35,501 nucleotides of DNA, from positions 1 to 35,501 of the forward strand of contig CACCYT010000007.1 in the NCBI GenBank assembly GCA_902550325.1, given 5' to 3'. Source of the stretch: an uncultured Bacteroidota bacterium (GTDB lineage: Bacteria > Bacteroidota > Bacteroidia > Flavobacteriales > Flavobacteriaceae). Every line of letters starts with the position of its first letter. Position 1 is the first letter of the stretch. This document shows, one piece after another, positions 9,612 to 35,103 of this stretch. The notes beneath the pieces were generated by a model. That model saw only the letters and a list, made by a program, of their open reading frames with translations. It did no database searches and had not been told where the DNA came from. A program made the translations under genes and the position numbers.

Positions 9612-9626
9612 TATTAAAAAAAAAGT

Positions 9627-9643: not shown

Positions 9644-9654
9644 TTTTATTTAGA

Positions 9655-9730: not shown

Positions 9731-9734
9731 CTTT

Positions 9735-10751: not shown

Positions 10752-10785
10752 TGTTTAAATTTAACAAAACATTATCTAAATTAAG

Positions 10786-11031: not shown

Positions 11032-11039
11032 CAGTTTCT

Positions 11040-13701: not shown

Positions 13702-13720
13702 AATTCACTAATTTAAAGGC

Positions 13721-15013
13721 ATGTTTAGAAGAAGATCATTTTTAAAAAGTTCATCGTTAATTGCAGGTGGATTGGTACTACCTAAATTAACTTTTAAATC
13801 AAAAAAGTCAAATCAAAAAAAAATTAAGATTGCTGTAGTTGGTTGTGGTGGAAGAGGTTCAGGTGCGACAGTTGAAGCTCTCAGAGCTGATGATAACACT
13901 GAGCTAATTGCTATGGCTGATGCATTTAAAGATCGGCTGGAAATGAGCTTAAATGCAATAAAAGATGAGTTTGCCGGGGAAAAGGAAATTAAAATTAAAG
14001 AAAAAAATAAGTTTGTTGGTTTTGATGCCTATAAAAAAGCAATTGATAAGTCTGATGTGGTTATCCTTGCAAGTCCACCAGGATTTCGACCTTCTCATTT
14101 TGAGTATGCCATAAATAAAAATAAACATGTCTTTATGGAAAAGCCTGTTGCAACGGATGCTCATGGAGTTCGACAAGTTTTAAAATCTGCTAAGATTGCA
14201 AAAGAAAAAAACTTGAATGTTGTGGTTGGTCTGCAAAGGCGTTATCAAAAAAGTTACCTAAGTGCAAAAAAACAAATTGATAGAGGTATCATTGGAAAGA
14301 TAATTTCTGCACATGTTAGATGGAATAGTGCAGGAGTATGGGTCAAAGAAAGAGAAATGAGTCAAACTGAGATGGAGTATCAGATGAGAAACTGGTATTA
14401 TTTTAATTGGCTGTGTGGTGATCATATATGCGAACAACATATTCATAACCTTGATGTTGCTAATTGGTTTTTAAACGAATATCCAGATACAGCACAAGGG
14501 ATGGGTGGGAGAGAGATTAGAAAAGATAAAAAGTTTGGAGAGATATTCGATCATCATTACGTAGAGTTTAAATATAAAAGTGGTGCGATTGTTTCCAGTC
14601 AATGCAGGCATCAGCCAAATACACACAGACAAGTCAATGAAACAATTATTGGGACAAAAGGAATCTTAGAAATAAGTGGAAATGGAAACGCCATCATAAA
14701 AAGCCACGATGGTGATATATTGTTTCAATACAATCAAAGAGGCGATGAAAGTCCTTACCAAATTGAACATAATGAACTTTTTAAAAGCCTAAGAAGTGGA
14801 GGGTATATTAATGACGGAGAAAACGGAGCAAAAGCTACATTGACATCTATAATGGGAAGAATGGCAACATACACAGGAAAAATTATAAACTGGGAGGATG
14901 CTATGAGCGCAGATGATAATATGATTCCAAAAAATTTAAGTTGGAATTCAAATCCCCCCACTCTTCCTGATTCAAATGGACTATATAAAATACCAAGACC
15001 GGGTTCTTCATAA
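13721..15013 (+). CDS. Tat-exported Gfo/Idh/MocA oxidoreductase
   Basis: The 430-residue protein opens with a twin-arginine signal (FRRRSFLKSSSLIAGG), predicting export in folded, cofactor-loaded form. A Rossmann domain follows with IAVVGCGGRGSG (about 37-48) and the family motif MEKPVATD, then an alpha/beta C-terminal domain with a conserved HICEQHIHNLDVANW segment. Such enzymes oxidise or reduce sugar-type substrates with tightly held NAD(P). The gene lies between a SUMF1-fold gene and an esterase gene, all in one direction with gaps of 19 and 9 nt. The substrate is unknown; a sugar or sugar acid from marine polysaccharide is a reasonable guess. Confidence 0.9.
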   Translation: MFRRRSFLKSSSLIAGGLVLPKLTFKSKKSNQKKIKIAVVGCGGRGSGATVEALRADDNTELIAMADAFKDRLEMSLNAIKDEFAGEKEIKIKEKNKFVGFDAYKKAIDKSDVVILASPPGFRPSHFEYAINKNKHVFMEKPVATDAHGVRQVLKSAKIAKEKNLNVVVGLQRRYQKSYLSAKKQIDRGIIGKIISAHVRWNSAGVWVKEREMSQTEMEYQMRNWYYFNWLCGDHICEQHIHNLDVANWFLNEYPDTAQGMGGREIRKDKKFGEIFDHHYVEFKYKSGAIVSSQCRHQPNTHRQVNETIIGTKGILEISGNGNAIIKSHDGDILFQYNQRGDESPYQIEHNELFKSLRSGGYINDGENGAKATLTSIMGRMATYTGKIINWEDAMSADDNMIPKNLSWNSNPPTLPDSNGLYKIPRPGSS

Positions 15014-15022
15014 TTTATCATT

Positions 15023-15931
15023 TTGAGATATTTCTTTAAATTATTATTTATAATACTTTTTATATTTTCTTGTAATACAAATAATGAGATTGAAAATAAT
15101 CAAATTGAAATTTCATACCCATTAGATTACTTATTCAACCATGATGGAATTAACCGAAGTTATACATTATATAAGCCTAACAATCTTGAGGATGATGCAC
15201 CCCTGATTTTTGTATTACATGGATATGGAAGTAACTCAAAAAATATCATGAGATATTCTCAAATGAATGATATTGCTAATAGAAATGGGTTTGCCGTCTG
15301 TTATCCCCAAGGCTCCATAAATTATTATACTAGCAGTACGCACTGGAACGCAAACCTTAAAGAAATGAGTAACGTTAAAGATGCCGACTTCTTATCAAAA
15401 CTTGCAACTTTTTTGCAAGCTGAACATAATTTAAGCAAAGAAAATACATTTGTTAGTGGAATGTCAAATGGAGGATTTATGAGTTATACACTAGCGTGCG
15501 AAAAATCAAATGTTTTCAGTGCAATTGCAAGTGTTACAGGAACGATGAGTGGTTATGACTGGAGAAATTGTAATCCAGAAAAACCAATTCCAATATTACA
15601 GCTTTCGGGAACTGTTGATTATGTAGTGCCGATGGATGGTTCGATGTCAAATGCTGGTGGATGGGGAGGTGCACCTGATATACATAAAATTATTGAATAC
15701 TGGTCTAGTTTGAATTCATGCGATAAAAAAGAAATTGTAAGGATTGCAAATGTTAATCAAAATGATAATTCATATGTGGTCTTAGAAAAAAACTACAATG
15801 AGAACCAATCTAATGAAGTATGGTTATATACAGTCTATGGGGGTGGACACACATGGCCTGGTGCTTGGGGAAATATGGATATAAGTGCTAGTGAAGAAAT
15901 TTGGTCTTTTTTTGAAAAATATTTGAGGTAA
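15023..15931 (+). CDS. Lipoprotein alpha/beta-hydrolase, PHB-depolymerase/feruloyl-esterase type
   Basis: The 302-residue protein has a lipoprotein signal peptide (lipobox FIFSC, Cys17). The hydrolase core has IFVLHGYGSN (oxyanion-hole region), the nucleophile elbow GMSNGG with Ser148, an acidic residue in SGTVDYVVP and a histidine in GGGHTWPG, forming the expected Ser-Asp-His triad in order. The match is to the LpqC/polyhydroxybutyrate-depolymerase (esterase D-like) family, which includes acetyl-xylan and feruloyl esterases. The start is TTG at 15023; no ATG lies before the signal peptide. It lies between two Gfo/Idh/MocA genes, with the next ATG directly after its stop, so deacylation of a decorated glycan is more likely than PHB breakdown. 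That role is inference. Confidence 0.88.
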   Translation: MRYFFKLLFIILFIFSCNTNNEIENNQIEISYPLDYLFNHDGINRSYTLYKPNNLEDDAPLIFVLHGYGSNSKNIMRYSQMNDIANRNGFAVCYPQGSINYYTSSTHWNANLKEMSNVKDADFLSKLATFLQAEHNLSKENTFVSGMSNGGFMSYTLACEKSNVFSAIASVTGTMSGYDWRNCNPEKPIPILQLSGTVDYVVPMDGSMSNAGGWGGAPDIHKIIEYWSSLNSCDKKEIVRIANVNQNDNSYVVLEKNYNENQSNEVWLYTVYGGGHTWPGAWGNMDISASEEIWSFFEKYLR

Positions 15932-17311
15932 ATGTCAAATTTAAATAGAAGGAAATTCATAAAAACATCTTCATTGGGTGCAATAGCAGCATCTACCTTA
16001 AGTATTAATTGTCAAAACAATCTTAATCTATCTAATCAAGGTAAATATCTTGGTGGGTTTAAAACTAATCCCATTTCAAATATCAAAGCTGCATTCATTG
16101 GCCTCAACCGAGGAGGAACGCATTTAAGAAATTTTGCCAGTCTTAAAAATACTGAGGTTGTCGGTCTTTGTGATATATACGAATCGACGCTGAAAAGAGA
16201 ATTGGAAAGGTTATATCAAATCACTGATAACTTAAAAAATCTCAAGAATTATTGGGGCTCAAAAAAAGAATGGATTAAAATGATTGATGAGGTTAAACCA
16301 GATGTTGTTTTCATTTCCACTGACTGGGAAAGTCATGCACCAATGATTAAAGAATGCATTAAAAAAGGTTGCCATGTTTTTTGTGAGGTTCCATTTTCAC
16401 TTGAGCTCAATGAGCTATGGGAAATAATTAATGTTTCTGAAAAATATCAGAAACACTGTATGATGCTTGAAAATGTAAATTATGGACGTGATGAATTGAT
16501 GTTTCTAAACATGTGTAGAAAAGGAGTTATTGGCGAATTGTTACATGGAGAGGCTGCATATATCCACGATCTTCGCTGGCAAATGGATCACGATAATACA
16601 AGGATGGGATCTTGGAGAACAGATTTTTACAGAGAAAAGAATGGGAATATATATCCGACGCATGGTCTAGGGCCAGTTGCACAATACATGAATCTTTGCA
16701 GATCAGACGATAATTTTCATAAAATTGTTTCATATTCAAGTCCTGCACTAGGGAGAAACCAATACTCACAAGAAAATTTGAGTGAGAGCAATTCCTGGAA
16801 AAATATTTCTTTTGAAAACGGTGATATTAATAGTTCAATAATTAAAACAAAAATCGGAAGAACAATATTAGTACAATGGGATGAAACAAGTCCCAGACCA
16901 TATACCAGATTAAATTTAATTCAAGGAACAAGAGGAACCCTTGCAGGTTTTCCAGTAAGAGTTGCTTTAGAAAAAGGTTTTGAGGATATTACAAAAGATC
17001 ACCACAGCTGGATAGAAAATGAAGATTTAATGAGATTGTATGAAAAGTATGATCATCCACTTTATAAAAAACTTAATAAAAAAACTGTAAAAAGTGGTCA
17101 TGGAGGTATGGACGGAATCATGATGTATAGAATTGTAGAGTGTCTAAATAATGGATTGCCACTTGACCAAAATGTTTACGAAGGTTGTTTTTGGTCTGCT
17201 GTAGCTCCACTTTCAAAACAATCAATTTTGGACGATGGAAAACCACAAGATTTTCCTGATTTTACTAGAGGAAAATGGAAAGAAACTGAGAAGTTAGGAA
17301 TTGTTACATAA
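15932..17311 (+). CDS. GH109-like Gfo/Idh/MocA protein (alpha-N-acetylgalactosaminidase type)
   Basis: This 459-residue protein has a Tat signal (NRRKFIKTSSLGAIAAS) and then a Rossmann-type domain. The usual EKP motif is replaced by EVP (HVFCEVPFS), and segments such as CMMLENVNYGRDELMFLNM, GEAAYIHDLRWQM, YPTHGLGPVAQYMN and GHGGMDGIMMYRI match glycoside hydrolase family 109. GH109 enzymes cleave alpha-N-acetylgalactosaminides by an NAD-dependent redox mechanism. It ends the operon that starts at 10786; its ATG follows the esterase stop with no gap. The family call is strong; the real sugar specificity of marine GH109 members is not settled. Confidence 0.9.
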   Translation: MSNLNRRKFIKTSSLGAIAASTLSINCQNNLNLSNQGKYLGGFKTNPISNIKAAFIGLNRGGTHLRNFASLKNTEVVGLCDIYESTLKRELERLYQITDNLKNLKNYWGSKKEWIKMIDEVKPDVVFISTDWESHAPMIKECIKKGCHVFCEVPFSLELNELWEIINVSEKYQKHCMMLENVNYGRDELMFLNMCRKGVIGELLHGEAAYIHDLRWQMDHDNTRMGSWRTDFYREKNGNIYPTHGLGPVAQYMNLCRSDDNFHKIVSYSSPALGRNQYSQENLSESNSWKNISFENGDINSSIIKTKIGRTILVQWDETSPRPYTRLNLIQGTRGTLAGFPVRVALEKGFEDITKDHHSWIENEDLMRLYEKYDHPLYKKLNKKTVKSGHGGMDGIMMYRIVECLNNGLPLDQNVYEGCFWSAVAPLSKQSILDDGKPQDFPDFTRGKWKETEKLGIVT

Positions 17312-20670: not shown

Positions 20671-20973
20671 TTAAATTAAATTAATGAATTCATTATAATC
20701 CTTGGGATGCAGGGTTGTCATTATTTTTCCATCATTATCACAAATATCGACGCAAGGCTCTCCACTATCATCATATGTAAATCTGTATTTTTTATTTTCA
20801 GTCACAAAAGTGATATTATGGAGATATTCTTCATCCTCATAAAATTCGTCCGTAACAGTTTTGACATCAATATTCATATCATTCATAATGTTGGTAATTT
20901 TATTAATAAGCTCATTGACAGACTCTTTTGTTGGTTCGAAATCATGACCAAAAAAATTTTTTTCAGTTTCCAT
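20671..20973 (-). CDS. Small acidic protein, paralogue of 34768-35103
   Basis: This 100-residue protein carries 23 Asp/Glu against 9 Lys/Arg. Its N-terminal half looks helical; the C-terminal half has FTYDDSGEPCVDICDNDGKI followed by LHPKDYNEF. The protein at 34768-35103 has the same layout, with THDDDGIPCIDIVIDRDII and RPKEEVDLHNF, so the two share a domain marked by DDxGxPCxDI. No known family is recognised and no signal peptide is present. First gene of the minus-strand set, divergent from the glycoside-hydrolase-like gene with about 50 nt between. Confidence 0.72.
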   Translation of the reverse strand: METEKNFFGHDFEPTKESVNELINKITNIMNDMNIDVKTVTDEFYEDEEYLHNITFVTENKKYRFTYDDSGEPCVDICDNDGKIMTTLHPKDYNEFINLI

Positions 20974-21024
20974 AATTCTAAAATAATATTATTTTTCATG
21001 GAAATTTAACTATAATTTTAAGTG

Positions 21025-22188
21025 ATGAAAAAATATTTAACAATAATATTTTTTATAATATTTTCTTGTTTTTGTAATGCTCAGATTGATCGATTCAAAA
21101 TTCAAAAAACTAATAACAGCTATAAATTAATTTCACCAACCGGTAATTCTTTTTTTTCTTTAGGCATCACACATACCCAGGCCCTTAATTATCCAAATTC
21201 AATGAAAATTTTTGTCAATAAATATAAAAATGATTGGTCATCAGCATCTGCTGAAATATATCGCAATCTTATTTCTTGGGAATTCAACACAGCAGGTTAT
21301 GGAGCGCCAAAAGAATTAAGAAAATTAATCCCATTTATGATGCCCTCTCAACCTCTTGTCGGAAATTCATCTTGGCTAGAAAAAGAAAAATTTTTTTTCT
21401 CTGATATTTTTGATTTTGAAGTTAAGAAAGAGATATTGAATAAAATCCAGAACATGACGAGTGAAAAAGACAATCCTAACTTAATCGGCTATTTTTGGAC
21501 CGATATGCCAATGTGGAATCTAAAAAAATCAAAAGAAAAGTTTGGTTTTAATTGGGTAGATTACATAAAAAATCTTCCAGAAAATTCCGCAGGAAGAATT
21601 CGTTACGAAAAGTTTAAAAATGAGCAACTATTTGATAATTCTTTAACATTTGAAGAGAATTTTCTGAAGCTTATTGCGAAAGAATATTATAAACTTATTG
21701 GCGAAGAGACTAAAAGATTAGATCCAGGTGCCCTTATTTTTGGTGAAAGATATGCAATGCACAGGGTTCCTAAATATATTATAGAGGAAGCTTTGCCCTA
21801 TATTGATGTCGTTTCAATTCAGCCACATGACTGTGATTTTAATGAAAATTATTTTAGAGAAATACATGAGATTACTGGGAAACCAATTATAATATGTGAC
21901 CATCAATGTAGTTTTCCTACTGAAAAATATAGATATACGATGTGGCAACAGTTAAATAACCAAACTGAAGTGGCTGAAAAACACAGAGAGTATCTCAATG
22001 AGGTGGTTAATGAATCTTATTTGATTGGTTATCACAGATGTCAATATATTGACAGATATGAACCAACAAATAATTTATTAAAACAAGGTATGGTAAAAGA
22101 AAATGGAGAAACTTATGAGCCACATGCATCAATTATTACAAGGACAAATAAAAAAGTAAAAGAAATATTTAAAGACAAAAGAAAATAA
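21025..22188 (+). CDS. Secreted agarase-like glycoside hydrolase (TIM barrel)
   Basis: The 387-residue protein has a signal peptide (about residues 1-20, ending FCNAQ). The body resembles agarase-type (clan GH-A) TIM-barrel hydrolases: LISPTGNSFFSLGI near the start, IGYFWTDMPMWNL, YYKLIGEETKRLDPGALIFGERY with a candidate catalytic Glu, DVVSIQPHD, GKPIIICDHQ and IGYHRCQYIDRY near the end. The ATG at 21025 is preferred to a GTG one codon earlier. It would act on a polysaccharide in the periplasm or outside the cell. Assignment to a numbered GH family and the identity of the nucleophile cannot be settled by eye. It converges on the DUF481-like gene with 3 nt between. Confidence 0.75.
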   Translation: MKKYLTIIFFIIFSCFCNAQIDRFKIQKTNNSYKLISPTGNSFFSLGITHTQALNYPNSMKIFVNKYKNDWSSASAEIYRNLISWEFNTAGYGAPKELRKLIPFMMPSQPLVGNSSWLEKEKFFFSDIFDFEVKKEILNKIQNMTSEKDNPNLIGYFWTDMPMWNLKKSKEKFGFNWVDYIKNLPENSAGRIRYEKFKNEQLFDNSLTFEENFLKLIAKEYYKLIGEETKRLDPGALIFGERYAMHRVPKYIIEEALPYIDVVSIQPHDCDFNENYFREIHEITGKPIIICDHQCSFPTEKYRYTMWQQLNNQTEVAEKHREYLNEVVNESYLIGYHRCQYIDRYEPTNNLLKQGMVKENGETYEPHASIITRTNKKVKEIFKDKRK

Positions 22189-22191: not shown

Positions 22192-22947
22192 CTATAGATC
22201 AATTTCAACACCAAAGGTCAGCTCAGTATCAGACTTTAATATTTCAACATAAGGCTTAGAATGATATCTATGTTTAAGATTGAGGTAAATTGGGAATGAA
22301 GTGTAATTAAGGTATAATCTAGGTTCTATAAATAATCTTGCATCACCCAAATCTTTTGTATTAATTTGATAATAAATGCTTGTATTTAGCAAAATTTTTT
22401 CTGTAATTGAAAAATTTGAAAAACTACTTAAACTATATCGATAATTATATTTTTCAATTTGTGATAAATTATTCTCTTCATACAGTTCATCCTCGTAAAA
22501 AAACCCAAAAGAAAAATCGAAATAATTGGTCATTTTTTCTTTAATTCTAAATCTGTATCCTGCCCCTACCAAGTATCGATGGAGTAACTTTAATGACTTA
22601 ACATTTTGACCTTGTATAAATAAAAAAGCAGAATTTTTATTATAAAACTTATTGAATCTTATTTGTCCCACCCAGTCATCAGCTAAAACATCTTTTTCCT
22701 CTGAAATATATTCATAACCAAATGAAAGTCTTAATAAACTATTATTGATTTTTTTTCCAATAGACAATGAATTGTTCAGTTGAGTAAATTCAATATTTCC
22801 AAAATTTACATTACCATCAATATTTAATTTAAATGCAAATGTGCTATCAATTTCTCTTAATAATGATTCAGTATTAATAATTGTCTGAGTAAAGGAATTT
22901 AAAATTAAAAATAGGATTGAAAAGATTGAAAGAACCAGTTTTTTCAC
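22192..22947 (-). CDS. Outer-membrane beta-barrel protein, DUF481-like
   Basis: The 251-residue protein has a signal peptide (about 1-20) and then about a dozen alternating amphipathic strands rich in Tyr, Phe and Asn, ending in a strand that closes FGVEIDL. The early segment LNIDGNVNFGNIEF, with repeated paired strands and turns, resembles DUF481 (salt-induced outer-membrane protein) members. The start is GTG at 22947, directly before the Lys-rich n-region. It probably sits in the outer membrane as a small barrel. Function unknown; a DUF2490-like barrel is an alternative. Confidence 0.7.
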   Translation of the reverse strand: MKKLVLSIFSILFLILNSFTQTIINTESLLREIDSTFAFKLNIDGNVNFGNIEFTQLNNSLSIGKKINNSLLRLSFGYEYISEEKDVLADDWVGQIRFNKFYNKNSAFLFIQGQNVKSLKLLHRYLVGAGYRFRIKEKMTNYFDFSFGFFYEDELYEENNLSQIEKYNYRYSLSSFSNFSITEKILLNTSIYYQINTKDLGDARLFIEPRLYLNYTSFPIYLNLKHRYHSKPYVEILKSDTELTFGVEIDL

Positions 22948-23843: not shown

Positions 23844-24347
23844 CTAATATTTTACATGTTGAACCTTCCACCTAACATTTGTTTTAGATAACATCTTCTC
23901 TGCTGCTTTGATATTTTTAATTGAGTCATCGACGTAGTAAATATCATTATAACCCTCATTATCTATTTTATCTTTTATCCAATTTGCTTTATCTTGAGGG
24001 TCATTGGATGCTAAAGCCGTAACATAAATTTTTGATGTGTCGATATCAATTTCACTCAGATACTTCCTTATTGGTTTGTAAGTTGATCTAGCAGTAAGAA
24101 TAAATATTCCACCTCTCCCTTTATTTAAAATCCTTCTCAGCACCTTAGTTACTTGCTTAATTTCTTTTGGATTTTTTACTTTTTGGAAATCAGAAAAATC
24201 AAAAATATCACCTTTTTTTTCATCATAGATAGCATACTGACCTGGTGTTAACTTAAGTTGTGAATCACCATTAGTAACATAAACATATGAGTCTGTTTTG
24301 ACTAATGTATCATCAAAATCAAATATCCTTAATCTTTTGTAACTCAT
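23844..24347 (-). CDS. HAD-superfamily phosphatase-like protein, phage type
   Basis: The 167-residue protein has the HAD motifs in order: DFDDTLV at 10-16 (Asp10 nucleophile, Asp12), ILTARS with Thr85, Lys120 in DPQDKANWI, and YYVDDS with Asp140/Asp141. The segment LTPGQYAIYDEKKGDIFDFS between motifs I and II is a feature I know from HAD proteins of marine phages and of nucleic-acid end-repair type. Hydrolysis of a phosphate, perhaps a nucleic-acid 3' or 5' end, is therefore plausible but not shown. It starts 6 nt after the DUF2779 nuclease gene on the same strand, which supports a nucleic-acid-related role. Confidence 0.8.
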   Translation of the reverse strand: MSYKRLRIFDFDDTLVKTDSYVYVTNGDSQLKLTPGQYAIYDEKKGDIFDFSDFQKVKNPKEIKQVTKVLRRILNKGRGGIFILTARSTYKPIRKYLSEIDIDTSKIYVTALASNDPQDKANWIKDKIDNEGYNDIYYVDDSIKNIKAAEKMLSKTNVRWKVQHVKY

Positions 24348-24353: not shown

Positions 24354-26246
24354 TTAATTAGAAAAACCGTGCAGTTTAAGTTCACTGGCAAAAAACTCAT
24401 AAATCATAACCATTGCTAAAGTGTCAAGTTCACAATATTTAAGTAAAGATTGTTTTATTATATTTCTCTCCTCAGATGACATTTCTTGGTACTGGATTTT
24501 AGCATATGCAGTTAAAGCATCCCCTCCATTATTAAGCTTATTTATGTCGCCAACTGGATTTTGAACTTTTGAAAAATCTGGAGCAGGTAATGAAATGTAT
24601 GGATCTAAATTTCCATCTTTAATCCAAATATGATTGCCTGAGAAATTAAGCGATGTTAGATTAATTTCACTAATTGGTTTGGAATATTTTTTATTTACAA
24701 ATTCACAAATTTTTATAACGGCTGGAAGAACAACTTTAATTGAGTTTGAACCTTTCATGTAGGAATCATAAAAATATTTCTTTACGAGGTCACACATATC
24801 GATCATGTCTCTGTCCCCTCTCCAGACTAGTTCACTGTTTTCTTTTTTATTTGTTATTGACTTGATGAAATCCATCAATTCACCTTTATCTTTTTCATCT
24901 GAGTCAATCAACTGATCATAAATTGCATTTAAAATCGAATTTTCATGGGTGGCATATTTAAAAACTGATCCCTTATCATTTTCTAAATCTTTTTTCAATG
25001 ATCTGACAAACTCGTAATTAGGAAACTTTCCAGGCTCTGCATTAATATATTCAGATTTGTGTTGAATGTTTCCATCAGAATATACAATATGATGAGAGTA
25101 CTGAAATGCGATTTGTTCATAGGGATGTCTACCTCTTGTGAAAGGGAGAGCTGATGTGCAAGTTTCAAAATCTATAAAATGTAATGGAAATTTCCATTCA
25201 ACCATTTCATCTCTTAAATTTTCAATATCCAAGTAAAAATCGACTGGCTTGCCAAGGCTTTCAGCTACTCTTTTTTCAATCTGCAACCATTGTCTGCTTT
25301 TTACACTTAAATGATTGTCACGAGTGTCATCAAAATCGGATTTAACTAATTGATCTAGAAAAAATACATTTGATTTGAATAATTTTTTCTGTTTTCTAAA
25401 CTGCCAAAGCTCATATATATTTGGTCGAAGCTTATCGTTCTCACTTATATCAAATTGTTCAATCCAACACTCCCTACAAACATGACCATTATAATTTTTC
25501 CAGTCAATTTCTTTTTGGTTGGTATAAACTTCAGTAAAATTTTCAACTAGCTCAAGGAATGACAAACCATGAATTTTATGAATATCTTTCTCTATTATAT
25601 CGTTAATCAAATCACTAATATTTCTTGATTCCATAATTGGATCTCCAGTATCTTCCAGTGTGTCTACTTTTCTCATTATTCCTGTTCGCACATTTGGATC
25701 TTTGGTAATTTGGAAAAGTTGATTGAGGCCATCAATGCTTGCTTTTTTTGATTTGTCAGCAAGCATTAAATGTGATTCTATTTTATGTTCAGGATAATTT
25801 TTTTTTACCACATATTTTTGAAATGCCAGGTCAAACAAATAAGTTCTCCACTGCTGTCTAATATTACCAGACTTTGATTTAAAAATATTTTCCACTGTTG
25901 AATCAAAAGATTTTGCTTTAACCTCAATGACTTTTATTACATTATCTGTTTTAACTAAAATATCCGTTCTAATAAAAAGGTTTTCATGTAAAAAGGCTGC
26001 CTCATAAATAATGGACTTGGGTTTTTTAATTAAATCACGTGTTTTTTGTAATGAAGTAGCATAATCGTAATCTTCTATTAAAACGCCAGGACTATAGTAT
26101 AGTCTAGATAATTCCTCAGCCTGAAACCCTCCATCAGCAAGAGCATCTAAAAATTCATTTTTATCCTCAGATGATTCATAATCAACGCTAAGCTTTATTG
26201 GGCATTCTAATCCCTTTTTAAATAATGTTTTTGTTAAAAATTTCAA
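24354..26246 (-). CDS. DUF2779 two-nuclease fusion (PD-(D/E)XK plus DEDD exonuclease)
   Basis: This is a 630-residue cytosolic protein. The N-terminal part resembles RecB/Cas4-type PD-(D/E)XK nucleases: a GLECPIKLS motif with Cys15, then FIRTDILVKT (Asp95) and VIEVKAKS (Glu108, Lys110), and later a VCRECW pair (Cys257, Cys260), possibly the rest of a metal site. The C-terminal part is the DUF2779 domain with a DnaQ-like core: HFIDFET (Asp359, Glu361), YATHENS, MIDMCDLVKKYF, GSNSIKVVLPAV and YCELDTLAM (Asp608). Both nuclease active sites look complete. Co-transcribed with the HAD protein. Proteins of this kind are scattered in mobile and defence contexts, but a role is not established. Confidence 0.88.
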   Translation of the reverse strand: MKFLTKTLFKKGLECPIKLSVDYESSEDKNEFLDALADGGFQAEELSRLYYSPGVLIEDYDYATSLQKTRDLIKKPKSIIYEAAFLHENLFIRTDILVKTDNVIKVIEVKAKSFDSTVENIFKSKSGNIRQQWRTYLFDLAFQKYVVKKNYPEHKIESHLMLADKSKKASIDGLNQLFQITKDPNVRTGIMRKVDTLEDTGDPIMESRNISDLINDIIEKDIHKIHGLSFLELVENFTEVYTNQKEIDWKNYNGHVCRECWIEQFDISENDKLRPNIYELWQFRKQKKLFKSNVFFLDQLVKSDFDDTRDNHLSVKSRQWLQIEKRVAESLGKPVDFYLDIENLRDEMVEWKFPLHFIDFETCTSALPFTRGRHPYEQIAFQYSHHIVYSDGNIQHKSEYINAEPGKFPNYEFVRSLKKDLENDKGSVFKYATHENSILNAIYDQLIDSDEKDKGELMDFIKSITNKKENSELVWRGDRDMIDMCDLVKKYFYDSYMKGSNSIKVVLPAVIKICEFVNKKYSKPISEINLTSLNFSGNHIWIKDGNLDPYISLPAPDFSKVQNPVGDINKLNNGGDALTAYAKIQYQEMSSEERNIIKQSLLKYCELDTLAMVMIYEFFASELKLHGFSN

Positions 26247-26642: not shown

Positions 26643-27386
26643 ATGATTAATAAGGTTGAAAATGTAATTAAAGAATTTTTCAATAAAGAAAAATTTAATC
26701 CCAAAACTTTTATGTCTAGTATGAATGAAGAAACTTATTATAACGAAGCAAATCTGCAACATGATCTTGCTTTGTATATTAAAGAAAATGAAGAAATAAA
26801 TAATGATATTGAGCTTAGACTTGAATACCCTGTAACTAGATTATTCGATAATAATGATTTGATATTGTCTAAAAAGGAAATAGATATAATTATCAAGTTA
26901 AAAAAGAAAAAAAAAGATTTTGAGGATGAATTTTTAATTGTTGAGTTAAAATATCTGAAAAAAAGTGATGGAATACCACTTGCTTTATTAGGTTCGCTAA
27001 AGGATATTCTATTTTGTGAACAAATAAAATTTATAAATAGAAGGCATGATAATTATAAGAAAAGAAAACTCCATTTTATAACCATATTGCTTACAGATAA
27101 ACTTAATTGGACATCAAATAAACATATTTACGGAACTTTCAAATTAATGGAAACTATCAATAAACCGAAGGTTAATTTTAATTTAAAAAAAGACTCAATT
27201 TGCTACTCAAATCCAATTAATATCATAAAAAAAGGTTTTAAAGACATAAAAGAAAGGATTGAGAAAAGCAAAGAATTGAAAGATTTTTATTCAGTTGGTG
27301 ATAATAAAATAGTATTTAAAGAAGAGCATAAAATTTTTTGGAAAAAAATTAATGGAAAATGGTTGTATTACATTAATAAATTTTAA
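26643..27386 (+). CDS. PD-(D/E)XK nuclease-like protein
   Basis: The 247-residue, Lys-rich protein has a layout typical of small PD-(D/E)XK enzymes: an N-terminal helix with Glu36 (YYNEANLQHDLALYI), LEYPVTRLF, then KKEIDIIIKL with Asp81, and FLIVELKYLK with Glu101 and Lys103. The spacing D-x19-E-x-K is within the family range. A C-terminal basic stretch (about 185-247) could bind nucleic acid. No family name can be given. Upstream is a small acidic gene (20 nt); downstream is a 190-nt gap without genes. Confidence 0.7.
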   Translation: MINKVENVIKEFFNKEKFNPKTFMSSMNEETYYNEANLQHDLALYIKENEEINNDIELRLEYPVTRLFDNNDLILSKKEIDIIIKLKKKKKDFEDEFLIVELKYLKKSDGIPLALLGSLKDILFCEQIKFINRRHDNYKKRKLHFITILLTDKLNWTSNKHIYGTFKLMETINKPKVNFNLKKDSICYSNPINIIKKGFKDIKERIEKSKELKDFYSVGDNKIVFKEEHKIFWKKINGKWLYYINKF

Positions 27387-27576: not shown

Positions 27577-28407
27577 ATGGGAACTAAAAAGTTTGTCGAA
27601 ATATTTAAATACACATTATTAGTAATCTCAGGATTTTTATCTCATGTATTCACCCTTTTTGCTACTTTAAAGTTTGAATTTGTGAAAGCAGAATTGGGTG
27701 GATTTGTGGCTTATTTTGGTGTAACAATTGAAGCACTTTTAATAGCGACCATTTTCTTTATTTTTTATCCTAAGTACGCAATCGGCGATACAAAACAGAT
27801 AGAGAAAAAGGGCTACAGCAAGTGGAATAATATAAATTGGATTGCTATTGGAGGCCTTCTAGGCTATATATATGTAGTGCAAAGAAGAAGTAATTCAGCA
27901 AAATACTTAGCAATTTTAATCGATAAACTAGATAAAAACATCATTCCATCTAGCGAACTAATGAAAGATTCTGGGTTTAGTAGCAAACATCCGCTTTGGA
28001 ATAAATATTTAGAATTAAAGTCAAATAAAGTTGATGCAGATAAAAAATTAGCTGAAAAAAGAAAAAGAAAAGCTGAAGAAACCAAGAAGAGAAAAGCAGA
28101 AGAAAAGGAAAAAAGAGAGGAAGAAAAAAAGAATAGGCTATTGGCATTTAAGAAAAAATATGGTGAAGATGCAACTAGAGCATTAGCTGGAAAGATATGG
28201 GTTAACATGTCTTTTGAACTATATAGACAGGCTCAAGTGATACGGCCAAAAGGTAGAAAATTTGGTAAAAAATTTGAAAATGTAGTTAATGGCGAGGAAA
28301 GGCATAAATACCGATTTGACCCTTATGAAAATAGACAGGGTAAAACATCCTACAACTTCGAGGTTGATACAAAAGATGGATTAATTACCGGATGGAAAGA
28401 ATTGTAA
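27577..28407 (+). CDS. Membrane protein with coiled coil and BamE-like C-terminal domain (copy 1)
   Basis: The 276-residue protein has two N-terminal membrane helices (about 10-30 and 42-68) and a further hydrophobic patch near 88-102. A Lys/Glu/Arg-rich coiled coil spans about 147-190. Residues 192-276 form a small domain beginning KKYGEDATRALAGKIWVNM and ending YNFEVDTKDGLITGWKEL. The pattern 'GkI..gM..el...a' then 'Y.......y.fe...g.l.gw' resembles the SmpA/BamE fold, a guess from layout. The next gene carries the same 85-residue domain. Function unknown; probably in the envelope. Confidence 0.72.
   Translation: MGTKKFVEIFKYTLLVISGFLSHVFTLFATLKFEFVKAELGGFVAYFGVTIEALLIATIFFIFYPKYAIGDTKQIEKKGYSKWNNINWIAIGGLLGYIYVVQRRSNSAKYLAILIDKLDKNIIPSSELMKDSGFSSKHPLWNKYLELKSNKVDADKKLAEKRKRKAEETKKRKAEEKEKREEEKKNRLLAFKKKYGEDATRALAGKIWVNMSFELYRQAQVIRPKGRKFGKKFENVVNGEERHKYRFDPYENRQGKTSYNFEVDTKDGLITGWKEL
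28150..28404 (+). repeat. Duplicated domain-coding segment, copy 1
   Basis: This 255-nt segment codes for 85 C-terminal residues; copy 2 lies at 28815-29072. By direct comparison 77 of 85 residues are identical, with one single-codon indel. The upstream parts of the two genes are not similar. Confidence 0.9.
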
Positions 28408-28424: not shown

Positions 28425-29084
28425 ATGAAAAGTAATAAAAAATATGTTAAGTGGGTTATTCTTTGGGGTATATTATTTTGGGTACCTTTTATAGCTGGAG
28501 CTAATGAACAAGAACTTCCAGCATTACCAATTGTAACTATTGGATCATTATTCGGAATAATAGCATTCACAATGAATGACAAAGGTCATGGAAAAATTAA
28601 TAATTTATTTTGGGGAGCCTTTGCAAATATAGCAGGATTGATATACGTAGGGTCCAGAGGTTATAAGAAGGGGTCTAGTGCTTACAAACAAAAAGTAAAT
28701 GCAGAAAAAGAAAGAAGAAATCAATTAGCAAAACAACATGCAAAACAAAAAGCTGCAATTAGAAATGCAGAAATTGAAAGAAAGAAACAATATACTAAAG
28801 CAGCTACAGGATTAAAGAAGAAATATGGCAATGAGGATGCAACTAGAGCATTAGCTGGAAAGATATGGGTTAATATGCCATTTGAATTATATAGAGAGGC
28901 TCAAGCGATACGACCAGAAGGAAGGAAATTTGGTAAAAAATTTGAGAATGTAGTTAATGGCGAGGAGAGACATAAATACCGATTTGACCCATATGAAAAT
29001 AGACAGGGTAAAACTTCTTACAATTATGAGATTGATACAAAAGCTGGATTAATTACAGGGTGGAAAAACCTTGAAGATAATTAA
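28425..29084 (+). CDS. Membrane protein with coiled coil and BamE-like C-terminal domain (copy 2)
   Basis: The 219-residue product has two or three membrane helices (about 8-28, 34-53 and 62-82), a basic and Glu-rich coiled coil (about 90-130) and the same C-terminal domain as its upstream neighbour, residues 131-216. Its N-terminal membrane part is unrelated in sequence to that of copy 1. Spacing to copy 1 is 17 nt, so they are co-transcribed. Its stop is 5 nt from the stop of the convergent STAND ATPase gene. Function unknown; a two-component envelope complex of the two paralogues is a reasonable hypothesis. Confidence 0.72.
   Translation: MKSNKKYVKWVILWGILFWVPFIAGANEQELPALPIVTIGSLFGIIAFTMNDKGHGKINNLFWGAFANIAGLIYVGSRGYKKGSSAYKQKVNAEKERRNQLAKQHAKQKAAIRNAEIERKKQYTKAATGLKKKYGNEDATRALAGKIWVNMPFELYREAQAIRPEGRKFGKKFENVVNGEERHKYRFDPYENRQGKTSYNYEIDTKAGLITGWKNLEDN
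28815..29072 (+). repeat. Duplicated domain-coding segment, copy 2
   Basis: This segment of 258 nt repeats 28150-28404 in the same orientation about 665 nt downstream. Long runs are identical at DNA level, including the part coding GKKFENVVNGEERHKYRFDP. This suggests a recent duplication or gene conversion limited to the domain. Confidence 0.9.
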
Positions 29085-29089: not shown

Positions 29090-32000
29090 TTATGATGTTG
29101 AAATTAATTTTTTAGCCTCTTCAATTAGTCTGATCTCAGTTTTTGTGAATTTTTTTTCTAATTTTTCTAGTTTTTTTAATGAGTCACTAATCAATTTTGA
29201 ACCTTTGATTGATTTATTATAAACTAAATTTATTCCTTTCTCAAGCTGACTCAAGTTATATAATTTAGGGAATGTGTAGTAGTAATCAGATGCTTTATCA
29301 ATCATTTCAATTGCTGCCTTATATTTTTTTTGCATTGATAAACATCTTGCGTGATTTAAAATACATTGGCCATAGCCAATTATGGTAAGTCTCTCTCTTC
29401 CTGATCGTGTATAAAATAATTCTTTTGGATCTTTAGAAAGTGGTACTAGCTCACCATTTATGAAATCCCACTTAGGAGGTACTCTTTCTATATAATTTTT
29501 TTTGTGGAAATCTAATGCTTTCAAGGTATAATCTAAAGCATTTTTAAATGATTTCTTTTTTAAATATAAACTTGAAAGTTTTTGATAACGTTGTGCTAGC
29601 TGAGAGTGGCTAACATTTAGACTTAAACTTAATGATTGTTTAGTTTCATCATCAAATTCCTCAAAATCTTTTCTTTTAGATAAATAATAATTGATTGCCT
29701 TATTCCAAATAGTTATACAATCATTAAAAAAATCAGGACAATTTGGTGTATGTTCTGTATGCCACTCTAAATCATTAGCAATATTTACACATGCTTTATC
29801 AAACTCACTAGATTCTTCACCAAAATCAGTTTTTAATCTGTTTAAATAATCTAATTGTAGATTTTTATATGTTTTTAAATCTTGCTTCTGAAGATAATAT
29901 AGTTTTTCTGCATCTAAAAACCACATTGAAGCTTTATTAACAGAGCCTTTGTCTAAAATTTTGGCTAAGAATTTTTTTGCATCTTCAAAGTTTTTTTCAG
30001 CAATTTCTGGGTTTTGATTAATATACAATTTACCGGGTCTTAAAACACCATTATTAAAATTATAATAGGTTTCTTTTTTAAAGCCTTTACATTTACTGAG
30101 AATAAACTTTATAAAAGTTAATACCCAGGCTTCATTGATTTTACCATCATTTTTCAACCTTTGATTATATAGCTTAAATACTTCGTTTGATTTTACACCG
30201 TCTTTAAAGTTTAGATGACAATAATTCAGATAACTATTAACACAGTCATATAAAAACTTCGGATTTTGATCTTTTAAACTATCAATTAGAGACTTATATT
30301 TATCAAATAATTCATCAATTTTTTCTTGAGATTCACCAACAGTTCTAGCAGCCTTTTCAATTTCCCATAGTTTTTGTTCCCTAACTGCTAATTTGTGGAA
30401 CTTTGTAGATTTTAATTGGTCAACAGCATATTCAAACATTACTTTTTGTCCTTCTTCTATTTCTTTTTGTCTTTTTTCATATTCTCCAGAAATAATCATT
30501 TCGACTTCATCATCAAGAGACAAATTTATTTTTCCAAGATCTTTAATAAAATAAATTAGAGATAGGCCGTTTAACTTGGTTGGAAATTTGCTAAGCGTAT
30601 TAGTAAAGCTATTGAAATTATTGCCTGAAAATCCAACCCTGGTTGTAGTTACAACAGAAGTTGATGAAGTATCCATAATTTCACCATTTAAAATAATCAG
30701 TAACCTTAAATCATTTGATAGCTGATCAGTATTAATTCCAGGCGGAAGAGGGATTTTAGACTTTCTTTTTTCTTCCTCAGCTAGTTCATCTAATATTTTA
30801 GTCTTTTCAGCAAATGAAAAATTAATATCATCAGCAATTATTCTTAGTTTTTTTACTAAATCTGAAAGCTCATTAAATTTTTTCTTGTTAAGTAAATTTG
30901 CAAAAGCATCAAGTTTTCCTAATTTTTTTAAATATAAATACCTACATATAAGATCTAAAATTAGTTTATTGCAATTTACTCTGTAATGTTCTATTGAGCC
31001 AAGTGTAAGCATTCTCCTGATTACTTTTAGTACGTCTTCGGTATCGTATTTTTCTGGATTTTTAATTATATCCGATTGTAATTCTAGATATCTTTTATTA
31101 TACTCAATAATTATTTGTTTTTCTCCTTCATCTTTTATTGAGGCGTCTTTAAAATATGATTTCAATGCACTAACAATTCTTCTGTCTTTGAACTCATAAA
31201 AATTATCTTGGCTGGATACATCAATTAGAAGATTTTTATTTACGGCATTTTCTAAGAAATCAAGTACATCTAGTAGTTTATAGCCCCATACCTGAGCAAG
31301 AATATCTGCGTCAAATTTATTTCCTATGACTGATGCGCTTTCAAGTATTCTCCTCCACTTAGGGTCGAAGGTTTCAAAAATGGTGTGATAATAACTATCA
31401 ACATCCTCGTCTGGGGGCAGTGATTCAATATCCACTGTCTTTGTTAAGAGATATCCATCGGGTGAATATTTAAGTGAACCATCTGAAATCCAAGACTCTA
31501 AAACTTTAAAAATATACAAAGGGGTTAATCTTCCATTTTCTGTTTCGGATTTTAATTTTTCATCTAATTCATTAAATAAAGTATTAATTTGATTCATTGA
31601 ACTAGTGGCAATTCTAAACTTATTTTTTTCAGTGCTTAAATTTTTAACAAAGTCCGTAAGGTTAAATGAATTGGTGTCCAACAAATCCATAATGTGAAAT
31701 GGATTATTGGTTTCTTGATTTAAATTATCTAACTCCGTTCTAAGTTTTTCATAGTTCAACCCACGAAATAATCCTTTTATTTCTGATCGAACTGAAATTA
31801 AAATACAAAGGTTTTTTCTTAAAAATGTATTTCTATTTACAGTCTTTATAAAATGCTTAAGTAATGTTAATGTTTCTGGATCAATCCAGTGAATATCCTC
31901 CATTATAAATAAAACTTTTTTATTTATAATTGTCAGTTTATCCAGTATCTCAAGTGAAATTTCATTCATCGTTTTTTCTGAACTATTATTGAAATCTGAA

Positions 32001-33913
32001 AAATTAATTGGGATTCCTGCCTTGTCACTTGCAATATTTATAATACCCTTTGTAATTTTATCTGTTGATTCTGTTCTACTATTCCAATCTTCACCGATCA
32101 AACCACTAAAAGCCTCTAAAAAAGGCTCAAACGAAACTTTATTTTCATCTTGAATCTCATCACAATCACCAATAAAAACTTTCCAATTATTTTTCTCGAA
32201 AGATTTTATAGCTTGATTTAAGCTTCTTGTTTTACCAATCCCCATAGGACCATTTACTAACATTATATTCAAATCATCTGTCATATTCTGATCAACAGTT
32301 TTATAAATTGAATTATTTGGATTCATAACGCTTTTAATATATGGTACGTTAAGAATTGTACTTTCAACAGAATTTTTTGATCTTTTTTCGAATAATTTAT
32401 CAAGAAAATTATCTAATAAATTATTGATTATTGAAATTGGTGCTATAATTATAAAACTCAAAAATAAATTTTGAATTGAAAGTTCAAAAATTATTATTCT
32501 ATTAAAGATTATCAGTGCTATTAAGCCAAGAGTTAATCCTATAATTGCTTGGCTCCTCTTGTATGTGTTTCTAGTTTTTATTCCATATTGATAATATGAT
32601 TTACCAAGTAAATTACCAATCAAAAGGGTTATAAATATTAGAAGTATATTAATTAAAAAAGGATATGTTTCATATTGAATAAAGTAAAAAATAAAAATTG
32701 GAAAGTATGTAGCGTACAAACAAGAATTAGCAAAAAAAGTATAACCTAAGGATGTATGAAAACCGTCAATATTTAATCTGTTAACAATAAACAAATTAAT
32801 AACAATTGGTAAGAAACTCATTAAAATTGTTAGTGATACAATCCATAGCTTGAAGGATAATTCACCTATGTCAGTATCTGATCTGGGTATAATGTATGAG
32901 GATATATAGATCATTAAAAATGATAAAATAATTGGGACAAGAAAATATAATGCCACGTACTTAAGCTTATTTAATACTGAAACCAATAATTCAATATTCG
33001 AGTCTTTTGAAGAAAGAAAAATATTTTTTCTATTTATAAAAATTAATGATAGACCATAAGCAAATGAAACAAAAATTATTGCCAAAAATAAAACAACCAG
33101 AAGCTCTAAAATTAAAGGCAAGCTAGTTTTATCCACGCTAAAACCTCGAGTAAAAACTGATGCTTTTAAACCCTCATTTTTTTCATATATTTTAAAATCA
33201 GTATTTGCTAGCCAAATTTTGTTTTCAATTATATCAAGGTTATTCACTGTAAAAATTCCAAGTCGATCTAAGTTTAAATATTTCATCAATCGATTAATAC
33301 TATTTTCATTTAATGAACCATTTACCAACTCTTTTGCATCATCATATCCAATTATATCATTTAGCAACTCAGGTGAAATAATAAAATGTTTGGTATTTGA
33401 AATTAATGTCTGATTAATAATTTCGAATGTTTCTTCATCACAATTTTCCTTTATGATTATAGAATTAATTCTGTATTCAGATAATGGAGCATTACCTAAA
33501 AATTTATATTTGGATTCTAGAAGTTTTGAGAGAGCATCATCAAAAGCATACTCAACAGGTGGATCTATAAACCCAAAGTATTCTGGTAGTCCTGAATAAA
33601 AGTCAAAAAATTCAATTTTACTTATTACATCGTTACTAATTGCATTTTTAGTAAGTAATAGAGATTTTTCAATCTCAGATGCAAATCTGTTAGTGTTATC
33701 ATATTTTTTTATAGAATCAATATATTTTAAAGATAGATTTAGAAAATACTCATTATTAAAAGTCTGTCTTGAAATATATCTCAGAGAATTTACATGTCTT
33801 TTAAATCTTTCAATCTTGACTGAGTCATTTTCAAAAGTCACATGATTTTCTGATGAGAATAAAAACATGGAAAAGGACAAAAACAAAAAATAATAAACCA
33901 GGTTTTTTTTCAA
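29090..33913 (-). CDS. Giant membrane-anchored STAND ATPase with TPR tail
   Basis: There is no ATG near the 5' end. A TTG at 33913 gives MKKNLVYYFLFLSFSMFLFSS, a proper signal or anchor segment; a TTG at 33931 would add six residues, and the numbers below count from it. Residues 25-270 form an extracytoplasmic domain of unknown type. Between 271 and about 510 lie roughly seven membrane helices. The cytosolic part has a Walker A motif GPMGIGKT (561-568) and a Walker B motif VLFIMEDIHWID (673-684), followed by LISVRSE, as in AAA_16/STAND NTPases. The rest is helical, with TPR-like repeats near 1437-1475 and again near the C-terminus. STAND ATPases switch on by ligand binding; here a membrane and envelope sensor is fused on. 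Function unknown; the domain order is unusual. Confidence 0.85.
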   Translation of the reverse strand: MKKNLVYYFLFLSFSMFLFSSENHVTFENDSVKIERFKRHVNSLRYISRQTFNNEYFLNLSLKYIDSIKKYDNTNRFASEIEKSLLLTKNAISNDVISKIEFFDFYSGLPEYFGFIDPPVEYAFDDALSKLLESKYKFLGNAPLSEYRINSIIIKENCDEETFEIINQTLISNTKHFIISPELLNDIIGYDDAKELVNGSLNENSINRLMKYLNLDRLGIFTVNNLDIIENKIWLANTDFKIYEKNEGLKASVFTRGFSVDKTSLPLILELLVVLFLAIIFVSFAYGLSLIFINRKNIFLSSKDSNIELLVSVLNKLKYVALYFLVPIILSFLMIYISSYIIPRSDTDIGELSFKLWIVSLTILMSFLPIVINLFIVNRLNIDGFHTSLGYTFFANSCLYATYFPIFIFYFIQYETYPFLINILLIFITLLIGNLLGKSYYQYGIKTRNTYKRSQAIIGLTLGLIALIIFNRIIIFELSIQNLFLSFIIIAPISIINNLLDNFLDKLFEKRSKNSVESTILNVPYIKSVMNPNNSIYKTVDQNMTDDLNIMLVNGPMGIGKTRSLNQAIKSFEKNNWKVFIGDCDEIQDENKVSFEPFLEAFSGLIGEDWNSRTESTDKITKGIINIASDKAGIPINFSDFNNSSEKTMNEISLEILDKLTIINKKVLFIMEDIHWIDPETLTLLKHFIKTVNRNTFLRKNLCILISVRSEIKGLFRGLNYEKLRTELDNLNQETNNPFHIMDLLDTNSFNLTDFVKNLSTEKNKFRIATSSMNQINTLFNELDEKLKSETENGRLTPLYIFKVLESWISDGSLKYSPDGYLLTKTVDIESLPPDEDVDSYYHTIFETFDPKWRRILESASVIGNKFDADILAQVWGYKLLDVLDFLENAVNKNLLIDVSSQDNFYEFKDRRIVSALKSYFKDASIKDEGEKQIIIEYNKRYLELQSDIIKNPEKYDTEDVLKVIRRMLTLGSIEHYRVNCNKLILDLICRYLYLKKLGKLDAFANLLNKKKFNELSDLVKKLRIIADDINFSFAEKTKILDELAEEEKRKSKIPLPPGINTDQLSNDLRLLIILNGEIMDTSSTSVVTTTRVGFSGNNFNSFTNTLSKFPTKLNGLSLIYFIKDLGKINLSLDDEVEMIISGEYEKRQKEIEEGQKVMFEYAVDQLKSTKFHKLAVREQKLWEIEKAARTVGESQEKIDELFDKYKSLIDSLKDQNPKFLYDCVNSYLNYCHLNFKDGVKSNEVFKLYNQRLKNDGKINEAWVLTFIKFILSKCKGFKKETYYNFNNGVLRPGKLYINQNPEIAEKNFEDAKKFLAKILDKGSVNKASMWFLDAEKLYYLQKQDLKTYKNLQLDYLNRLKTDFGEESSEFDKACVNIANDLEWHTEHTPNCPDFFNDCITIWNKAINYYLSKRKDFEEFDDETKQSLSLSLNVSHSQLAQRYQKLSSLYLKKKSFKNALDYTLKALDFHKKNYIERVPPKWDFINGELVPLSKDPKELFYTRSGRERLTIIGYGQCILNHARCLSMQKKYKAAIEMIDKASDYYYTFPKLYNLSQLEKGINLVYNKSIKGSKLISDSLKKLEKLEKKFTKTEIRLIEEAKKLISTS

Positions 33914-33922
33914 AATATAATT

Positions 33923-34000
33923 GTTGTACAACTAAAATTAAAATAAATAAACAATTTAGCAAGTATTGAATCTTACAATAATTTTATGATGTACAACTAA
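33923..34000. promoter_or_regulatory. Repeated TGTACAACTAA motif in the divergent promoter region
   Basis: TGTACAACTAA occurs at 33925-33935 and again at 33990-34000, same orientation, 65 nt apart. The first copy lies in a perfect 10-bp palindrome GTTGTACAAC (33923-33932). Both sit between the divergent STAND ATPase and acidic-protein genes, which fits binding sites for a dimeric regulator. Evidence is motif recurrence only. Confidence 0.4.
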
Positions 34001-34767: not shown

Positions 34768-35103
34768 ATGGAAAATATTATGAAATTTTTTAAAGAAACT
34801 TATGAATTAGACAGTTCCATCCCTATGGATCAAGATGATCCCTTAGTTATTTCTATGCAAAATGAATTTAAAGGATTATTAGAAGAAAATGGTTACACTG
34901 TGAGGGATGCGTATTCTGAGTATGATGAATATATCAATTCAATGTCTTTTGATTTAGAAAATAATAAAGAAATAAGAATAACTCATGATGATGATGGAAT
35001 TCCATGTATAGATATCGTTATCGATCGAGATATTATTTTTACGGTAAGACCAAAAGAAGAAGTTGATTTACATAATTTTGTCAGAGATTTAGGCAATCAC
35101 TAA
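34768..35103 (+). CDS. Small acidic protein, paralogue of 20671-20973
   Basis: The 111-residue protein has a helical acidic N-terminal half (DPLVISMQNEFKGLLEENGY) and a C-terminal half with THDDDGIPCIDIVIDRDII and RPKEEVDLHNF. The same order and the DDxGxPCxDI core occur in the protein at 20671-20973, some 14 kb away and on the other strand. The ATG at 34768 gives MENIMKFF; the second Met at position 5 is an alternative start. No known domain. It follows the 34069 gene by 36 nt. Confidence 0.72.
   Translation: MENIMKFFKETYELDSSIPMDQDDPLVISMQNEFKGLLEENGYTVRDAYSEYDEYINSMSFDLENNKEIRITHDDDGIPCIDIVIDRDIIFTVRPKEEVDLHNFVRDLGNH

Follow-up and report, generated by a model that had tools for sequence, protein, structure and literature searches.

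The STAND-TM locus

The window analysed here is the entire contig CACCYT010000007.1 (35,501 nucleotides) of assembly GCA_902550325.1, from an uncultured bacterium of the Flavobacteriaceae whose genome of 979,612 bases is 58% complete. Its minus strand carries the gene of a large protein, which we call STAND-TM, combining a predicted periplasmic part, seven predicted membrane helices, a STAND-type NTPase and a long helical tail. The open reading frame spans 29090-33931 and is open for 1613 codons, counted from the first in-frame TTG. A TTG aligned with codon 7 (TTGAAA context) is the start in three relatives, and for this reason the likely start is at 33913, giving a protein of 1607 residues. 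Residue numbers below follow the 1613-residue reading from the TTG at 33931. The parts of the gene, all on the minus strand, are the following.

29090..33913, minus strand: STAND-TM gene, 1607 residues from the conserved TTG (first in-frame TTG at 33931)
33848..33913, minus strand: signal peptide or N-terminal anchor, from a lysine pair and hydrophobic run, alignment with relatives and the hydropathy of some of them
33512..33847, minus strand: predicted periplasmic helical subdomain in which a GF-DD-EYAYDDAL-type motif is conserved, from the structure model (low confidence at residues 101-153) and alignments
33128..33511, minus strand: predicted periplasmic alpha/beta subdomain, weakly similar to LpoB, GNA1162, PelC and the TolB N-terminal domain (Foldseek and VIA)
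32387..33127, minus strand: seven predicted membrane helices, N-terminus out and C-terminus in, from the model, hydropathy (six of seven) and loop charges (except the 3-4 loop)
32741..32782, minus strand: the stretch NRLNIDGFHTSLGY between helices 3 and 4 (pattern NRL-IDGFH--GY), predicted cytosolic, with nearly invariant columns in near relatives
31532..32344, minus strand: AAA_16/STAND-type NTPase domain, matched by Pfam AAA_16 in nine of ten family members
32228..32251, minus strand: Walker A, GPMGIGKT, residues 561-568
31880..31909, minus strand: Walker B, FIMEDIHWID, residues 675-684
30932..31531, minus strand: most conserved segment, 52-90% identical to five relatives
29093..30931, minus strand: helical tail, with a TPR-like superhelix from 30400 to 29093

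Domain architecture

The NTPase core is recognized by Pfam AAA_16 on residues 551-705 (2.7e-12, above the cut-off), and the two Walker motifs that a sequence-only reading of this DNA had pointed out are confirmed. Walker A is present in all 13 sequences scanned, with its first G replaced by A in seven of them, and the Walker B pattern in 12; the thirteenth, G156, shows TIEDLHWID in the alignment. STAND NTPases carry an hhGRExE-type motif before Walker A, and a winged helix and a GxP-type motif after the NTPase. In STAND-TM the AAA_16 match begins at position 21 of the 167 of the profile and leaves the N-terminal part unmatched. The most conserved segment, just after the domain, may correspond to the winged-helix/arm region of STAND proteins. 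A TPLY/SPLH-like motif follows the NTPase in part of the sequences, with no model match and with a structure there that is partly of low confidence. The TPR-like repeats proposed for the tail were found as well: TPR_12 occurs at E values up to 0.1 in four of ten members (best 7.4e-13), the window's included with a sub-threshold TPR match (E 0.079), and the C-terminal 436 residues of the model fold like TPR superhelices (Z 14-17). By sequence and model, STAND-TM has the P-loop (Walker A and B) and the C-terminal repeats of the AAA_16 branch of STAND NTPases.

At the other end of the protein, residues 7-28 resemble a signal peptide or anchor, as had been proposed, with a lysine pair and a hydrophobic run that align in the relatives. 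Seven membrane spans, the number roughly expected, lie at about residues 272-512 in the AlphaFold model; hydropathy above 1.6 picks out six of them, and the fourth (about 394-420) comes from the model alone. The charges of the loops were compared in six sequences, with loop borders chosen from the structure model. Positive charges fall in loops 1-2 and 5-6 and in the segment past helix 7, acidic residues in loops 2-3, 4-5 and 6-7, a pattern that fits a predicted periplasmic N-terminal domain and a predicted cytosolic ATPase. There are two exceptions: the 3-4 loop has no positive and one or two acidic residues within its borders, with an N-R pair just ahead, and in AF_MB37 acidic residues outnumber basic ones past helix 7. 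The NRL-IDGFH--GY stretch of the 3-4 loop is among the most conserved positions in near relatives. A likeness of the helix bundle to TMEM147 and APH-1 (Z 11.5 and 9.9, root-mean-square deviation 5-7) was set aside, since helical bundles can reach such scores by chance.

The predicted periplasmic part comprises residues 29-268, so that the extracytoplasmic domain of the sequence-only reading stands, with a size of about 240 residues instead of 245. For its alpha/beta subdomain (residues 141-268), the best Foldseek matches are LpoB, GNA1162 and PelC (probabilities reaching 0.99, E 0.04-0.4), and VIA, a second aligner, gives LpoB with Z 7.6 over 117 residues and TolB with Z 5.7, levels which may be due to chance. 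LpoB, GNA1162, PelC and the TolB N-terminal domain have a fold in common and belong to the periplasm or the outer membrane; we know of no membrane bundle or NTPase in any of them. When six N-terminal halves were compared with Pfam, no family came below E 0.05, and no sequence of the PDB matched the N-terminal region below E 1. On the basis of the predicted fold, the periplasmic part weakly resembles these proteins, and the match is best taken as a lead.

A family with a conserved domain order

The homologue search proposed in the sequence-only reading, which had named a lack of conserved homologues as a finding that would speak against it, showed that the full architecture recurs. As far as sequences can tell, STAND-TM is a real protein family and not a chance reading, because the full domain order recurs in nine further genomes and in the distant G107 and G841. 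A scan of a genome collection gave ten loci encoding relatives, of which seven are members. Five copies are complete (L017, L018, L020, L021 and L022), those of L019, L023, G211 and G156 are cut by contig ends (G156 consisting of two of them), and L024 is a broken copy. The relatives are labelled uncultured Bacteroidetes, Flavobacteriaceae, Flavobacteriales or Bacteroidia, and the broken copy Rhodobacteraceae; the genomes with AG- names are presumably marine single cells. The broken copy (L024:7971-10939) is apparently that of G375, and its two upstream genes are 98-100% identical to those at the intact Ww290 copy.

The distribution of the gene is patchy. Within the genus it was found in 4 of 23 genomes, which are 55-87% complete. 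At the family level six of 397 genomes matched (G000, G156, G211, the broken G375, the distant G107, and G194), and at the order level, with the membrane half alone as query, three of 395: the window's own, G841 and a weak G984. Three rows were dropped: G049 (short, two stops), G194 (55 residues, one stop) and G984 (weak, its open reading frame having no relative here). G107 belongs to another genus and G841 to another family, and both are only 23-26% identical. Profile comparison with hhalign nevertheless aligned 795 columns for G107 (99.7%, E 9e-27) and 814 for G841 (99.95%, E 1.9e-38), and both retain the N-terminal hydrophobic segment, more hydrophobic spans, the P-loop and a long tail. 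Pfam matched nothing on the G107 protein, the end of which (L097:10000-10142) resembles TerB by eye. At the phylum level the full profile, scored on at most a few candidates per genome, matched 52 of 395 genomes. A phylum-wide spread was rejected: except for the window's own, these matches are confined to the TPR tail, with four genomes matching instead at the NTPase or right behind it, and none spans the membrane module. No relative was found among the viral contigs, phages and plasmids searched, and a viral or plasmid origin was discarded for this reason.

Relation to known proteins

The claim that no named family has this order of parts holds for Pfam, NCBIfam and PADLOC: no model of theirs covers the STAND-TM protein, and the NCBIfam matches are all far below the cut-off. 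No description of the architecture was found in the literature, in a search that left most subscription journals and all bioRxiv preprints outside its reach. In the libraries searched, the joining of a periplasmic domain, seven helices and an NLR-like ATPase switch is no named family.

The closest proteins outside the family are those of L025 (Shimia) and L026 (a Mycobacterium metagenome-assembled genome), which share the NTPase region and the following part only (22% identity over 222-329 residues). They are cyclase-AAA_16 proteins with the same type of NTPase, but with a cyclase at the N-terminus where STAND-TM has its periplasmic and membrane module. As these adenylate-cyclase fusions are the sole relatives outside the family in the scan of named genomes, STAND-TM might be a nutrient or stress regulator akin to MalT and the cyclase-STAND proteins that lies in a variable island by chance. 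We consider this highly improbable, since STAND-TM has no cyclase or DNA-binding domain above the cut-off and since its neighbours recur across genera, so that its position is not random. Another comparison concerns the layout. The 7TMR-DISM receptors consist of a signal peptide, an extracytoplasmic domain, seven helices and a cytosolic module, and by prediction STAND-TM shares this arrangement, a likeness of layout only. Their output is a kinase, a cyclase or a GGDEF domain, whereas that of STAND-TM is a STAND NTPase, and no 7TMR model appeared among the Pfam matches of the six N-terminal halves listed up to E 10, where the HMMER filters may hide weak ones.

With Avs5 and other STAND defence proteins, STAND-TM has in common a central STAND NTPase and C-terminal repeats, which are TPRs in some Avs5 according to PMC12931631. 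The same paper describes an N-terminal Sir2 effector for Avs5, and STAND-TM has no PADLOC match. Another resemblance is to the iSTAND MoxR-vWA ternary systems, which, in PMC7159879, combine a STAND-type protein with MoxR and vWA, some of them near the membrane, and occur in Bacteroidetes. These systems are defined there by an inactive STAND domain as the third component; STAND-TM keeps both Walker motifs, and we rejected its membership. MoxR itself was found in only 5 of the 10 tested genomes of near relatives that have the STAND-TM gene.

The role in phage defence considered by the sequence-only reading received no direct support, neither from PADLOC, which gave 0 matches on the STAND-TM protein, nor from the viral contigs, phages and plasmids. 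Among the 20 proteins scanned, three others match PADLOC models weakly: one C3a181 (0.006), one PDC-S48 (5.4e-6) and one both PDC-M71B (2.1e-5) and PrimPol (3.2e-4). We read these as coiled-coil, BRCT and TPR overlaps and not as a known defence system.

Genomic island and recurrent neighbours

The surroundings of the gene were compared between close relatives, with trxA and glmS named by eye. In G007 and G021, trxA, VTT and glmS adjoin one another. G010 has a single gene between VTT and glmS, unlike DUF481 and 82% identical to window 21022-22188. In G008, an island lies between trxA and VTT, with DUF481 and small genes between VTT and glmS; the window holds the order of G008 up to its end, and trxA is near the start of another contig. 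Judging by gene order, the island with the STAND-TM gene is absent in three close relatives. By DnaE, G010, G005, G007 and G021 are as near to G008 as the window genome (88-89%), yet they have no STAND-TM match. The following genes of the window have relatives near the gene elsewhere.

22192..22947, minus strand: DUF481 protein, with relatives adjoining the STAND-TM gene in three lineages
23844..24347, minus strand: HAD-like protein, in exactly the 4 of 23 genus genomes with the STAND-TM gene
24354..26246, minus strand: DUF2779 protein, linked to the STAND-TM gene in six lineages
26643..27386, plus strand: 247-residue protein, the relative of which in L020 (51%) is encoded directly downstream of the STAND-TM gene; a relative (29%) of the L020 protein is present in L022
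34069..34731, plus strand: 220-residue protein, with relatives near the STAND-TM gene in G008 (87%), G211 (28%) and AF_MB37 (31% over 87 residues)

DUF481 proteins are of an outer-membrane type. The gene stands 132 base pairs (bp) from the STAND-TM gene in AF_MB37, 88 bp in G107 and 2 bp in G841, and farther off in G000 and G008. As a control, DUF481 was not found in 11 stretches of at least 10 kb without a STAND-like match, a small set of chosen regions of which two (L058, L059) flank the G011 gene and from which L060 was left out as part of the G008 island. Upstream of DUF481 and STAND-TM, G841 has genes (L106:10605-15971) that resemble by eye an actin/Hsp70-like ATPase and a tubulin-like protein, with no Pfam or NCBIfam match. 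Together with the weak likeness of the periplasmic part to LpoB, PelC and GNA1162, the DUF481 neighbours would also suit a machine for envelope assembly or maintenance, in which the ATPase powers or gates a complex from the inner to the outer membrane, made of the LpoB/PelC-like part and DUF481, without signalling. We find this unlikely: a patchy, island-borne spread (4 of 23 genus genomes, many of them incomplete) is not that of a housekeeping function, and the NTPase resembles AAA_16 proteins such as the cyclase fusions.

The DUF2779 gene is linked to the STAND-TM gene in G000, G008, G011, AG-313-F11, Ww290 and AF_MB37. In the genus, the four genomes with the STAND-TM gene, and no others, also have DUF2779 and the HAD gene (Fisher p = 1.1e-4 per such pattern). 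A clade effect may be the cause of this co-occurrence; within the DnaE subclade the association is 2/2 versus 0/4, which is not significant (p = 0.067). An NT5C phosphatase, identified by Pfam on the G008 copy and by similarity on the others, is also near the gene in G008, G011, Ww290, G211 and G107.

In a third recurrent group, a MoxR ATPase gene is accompanied by LRR and VWA genes. It is divergent from the STAND-TM gene and adjoins it in G156, lies within 1 kb in AG-313-F11 and about 13 kb off in G011, and is on other contigs in G008 and G211. MoxR was searched for and not found in G000, G019, Ww290, AF_MB37 and S_MB74, nor in G107. It occurs in 5 of 397 family genomes, including two of the three with a clear STAND-TM gene (p = 3.8e-4), or two of five (p = 0.0013) once G107 and the broken G375 are added; G328, G188 and G429 have MoxR without STAND-TM. 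In G008, the run L085:7599-19901 encodes a BRCT-like protein, MoxR, LRR, VWA, a 1453-residue LRR-related protein, two proteins without a family match and an ATP-dependent DNA ligase, and parts of it recur near the STAND-TM gene in G011 and AF_MB37, and in G328 without that gene. In G188, which has no STAND-TM match, L095:3319-12095 holds a protein with WGR, TPR, LRR and BRCT near MoxR and VWA genes, which suggests that the MoxR-VWA module works with varied partners.

Divergence and exchange of the parts

Between the window and the more distant Ww290 and AF_MB37, identity is highest at residues 801-1000 (52-53%). The tail has the lowest, 20-26%, and AF_MB37 is as low (23%) in its short signal segment. 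Set against G011, G008 and AG-313-F11, the window differs most, among the folded parts, in the periplasmic one, with a nonsynonymous rate (dN) of 0.28-0.37 against 0.15-0.17 for the membrane part; saturation affects many of the synonymous (dS) values. In the periplasmic part the window shares 54-57% identity with four relatives, which are 67-73% identical among themselves.

Phylogenies of the parts do not agree. For residues 269-1000, the best tree pairs G011 with G008 and approximately unbiased (AU) tests reject every topology with window and G011 together (p at most 0.002). For residues 1001-1613, the best tree pairs the window with G011 and AU tests reject every topology with G011 and G008 together (p below 0.003), one topology without the window-G011 pair surviving (p = 0.11). 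For residues 29-268, the tests decide little. Because the AU tests give opposing groupings for the two regions, the alleles are mosaic between the membrane/ATPase part and the tail, and the tail appears to be exchanged as a unit.

Proposed function

The fusion of a STAND-type switch to a membrane and a periplasmic part is supported by the domain match, the structure model and the conserved order. As sequence and prediction have it, an exported N-terminal domain, seven helices, a P-loop NTPase and a TPR-like tail were held together over long evolutionary distances. We propose, tentatively and as somewhat short of probable, that STAND-TM is a trans-envelope receptor of the inner membrane with the STAND NTPase as its cytosolic switch. 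The direction of the signal that we infer, from outside to inside, is favoured by the arrangement of the parts, by the conservation of the periplasmic domain and by the DUF481 genes nearby. STAND switches such as the NLRs, Avs and MalT are mostly regarded as soluble detectors of cytosolic ligands. If our reading is true, bacteria also use NLR-type switches to read the envelope.

In the mechanism that we envisage, the periplasmic domain, perhaps touching an outer-membrane DUF481 partner, would detect a state of the envelope or a ligand. The seven-helix bundle would relay this to the NTPase, and in near relatives the conserved loop between helices 3 and 4 may serve as the link. The NTPase would then swap ADP for ATP and oligomerise, and the tail would recruit or release a cytosolic partner, for which the DUF2779 protein and the MoxR-LRR-VWA module are candidates. 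Extended to a whole class of receptors in Flavobacteriales, the proposal would be that outer-membrane DUF481 and the LpoB/PelC-like domain sense the state of the envelope and that the seven helices transmit it into the cell. There an NLR-like ATPase, its TPR tails being exchangeable, would set off a response in the cytosol, maybe through DUF2779 and a MoxR-LRR-VWA-ligase module; taken jointly, these statements are speculative and rather doubtful.

Several observations weigh against a receptor of the envelope. The structure models are moderate in confidence (pLDDT 62.9 and 64.5), and the LpoB-like structural matches are not significant. The charge of the 3-4 loop gives no backing for a cytosolic side, and its NRL-IDGFH--GY stretch is not kept in G107 and G841. 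DUF481 is near the STAND-TM gene in just 5 of 11 lineages, a count that excludes G019 (a 3.7-kb contig) and the broken copy and in which some flanks are short or one-sided. Between G011 and G008 it is the tail that diverges more (dN 0.20-0.24, against 0.15-0.19 for the periplasmic part), and the tail is both the least conserved part between distant members and a unit of recombination, as a sensor might be. Finally, STAND proteins are described in PMC12931631 as having an N-terminal effector and a C-terminal sensor. The order of sensing outside and ATPase inside advanced by the sequence-only reading thus gains from the DUF481 genes adjoining in three lineages, and loses from this order of effector and sensor and from the variable, recombining tail.

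The second reading is a conflict protein working from the inside out: sensing of a cytosolic intruder or of damage would fall to the TPR-like tail, the STAND core would oligomerise, and the N-terminal membrane module would perforate or remodel the envelope. Such an NLR-type switch would drive a trans-envelope effector. The effector and sensor order given for STAND proteins in PMC12931631, a tail that is the most divergent between distant members and swapped between alleles in the AU tests, an island absent from close relatives and the co-occurrence with MoxR-LRR-VWA genes all argue for it. A periplasmic domain of 240 residues with conserved motifs exceeds, on the other hand, the needs of a pore, STAND-TM has no PADLOC match, with just weak ones among the 19 other genes scanned, and its relatives are missing from the viral contigs, phages and plasmids searched. 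We regard this cytosol-sensing membrane effector as possible but doubtful, and favour the trans-envelope receptor over it.

Other genes of the window

The genes at 27577-28407 and 28425-29084 are tandem paralogues. Their C-terminal domains are alike (87.5% over 88 residues), and each has, by eye, a hydrophobic N-terminal part and a charged middle; neither has a Pfam match at the cut-off. Co-conservation of this pair with the STAND-TM gene, as had been suggested, was rejected: no match was found at E 1e-3 (1e-2 in one comparison) in the relatives' stretches compared. The small proteins of 20671-20973 (minus strand) and 34768-35103 (plus strand) are alike (40-46% identical over 37-63 residues), and the latter has a sub-threshold match to the immunity protein TriTu. 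Finally, the region 5814-17311 encodes a sulfatase, two FGE-sulfatase-domain proteins, a sodium:solute symporter, GFO/IDH oxidoreductases (one of the GH109 type) and an esterase, a cluster that probably serves the use of sulfated sugars.

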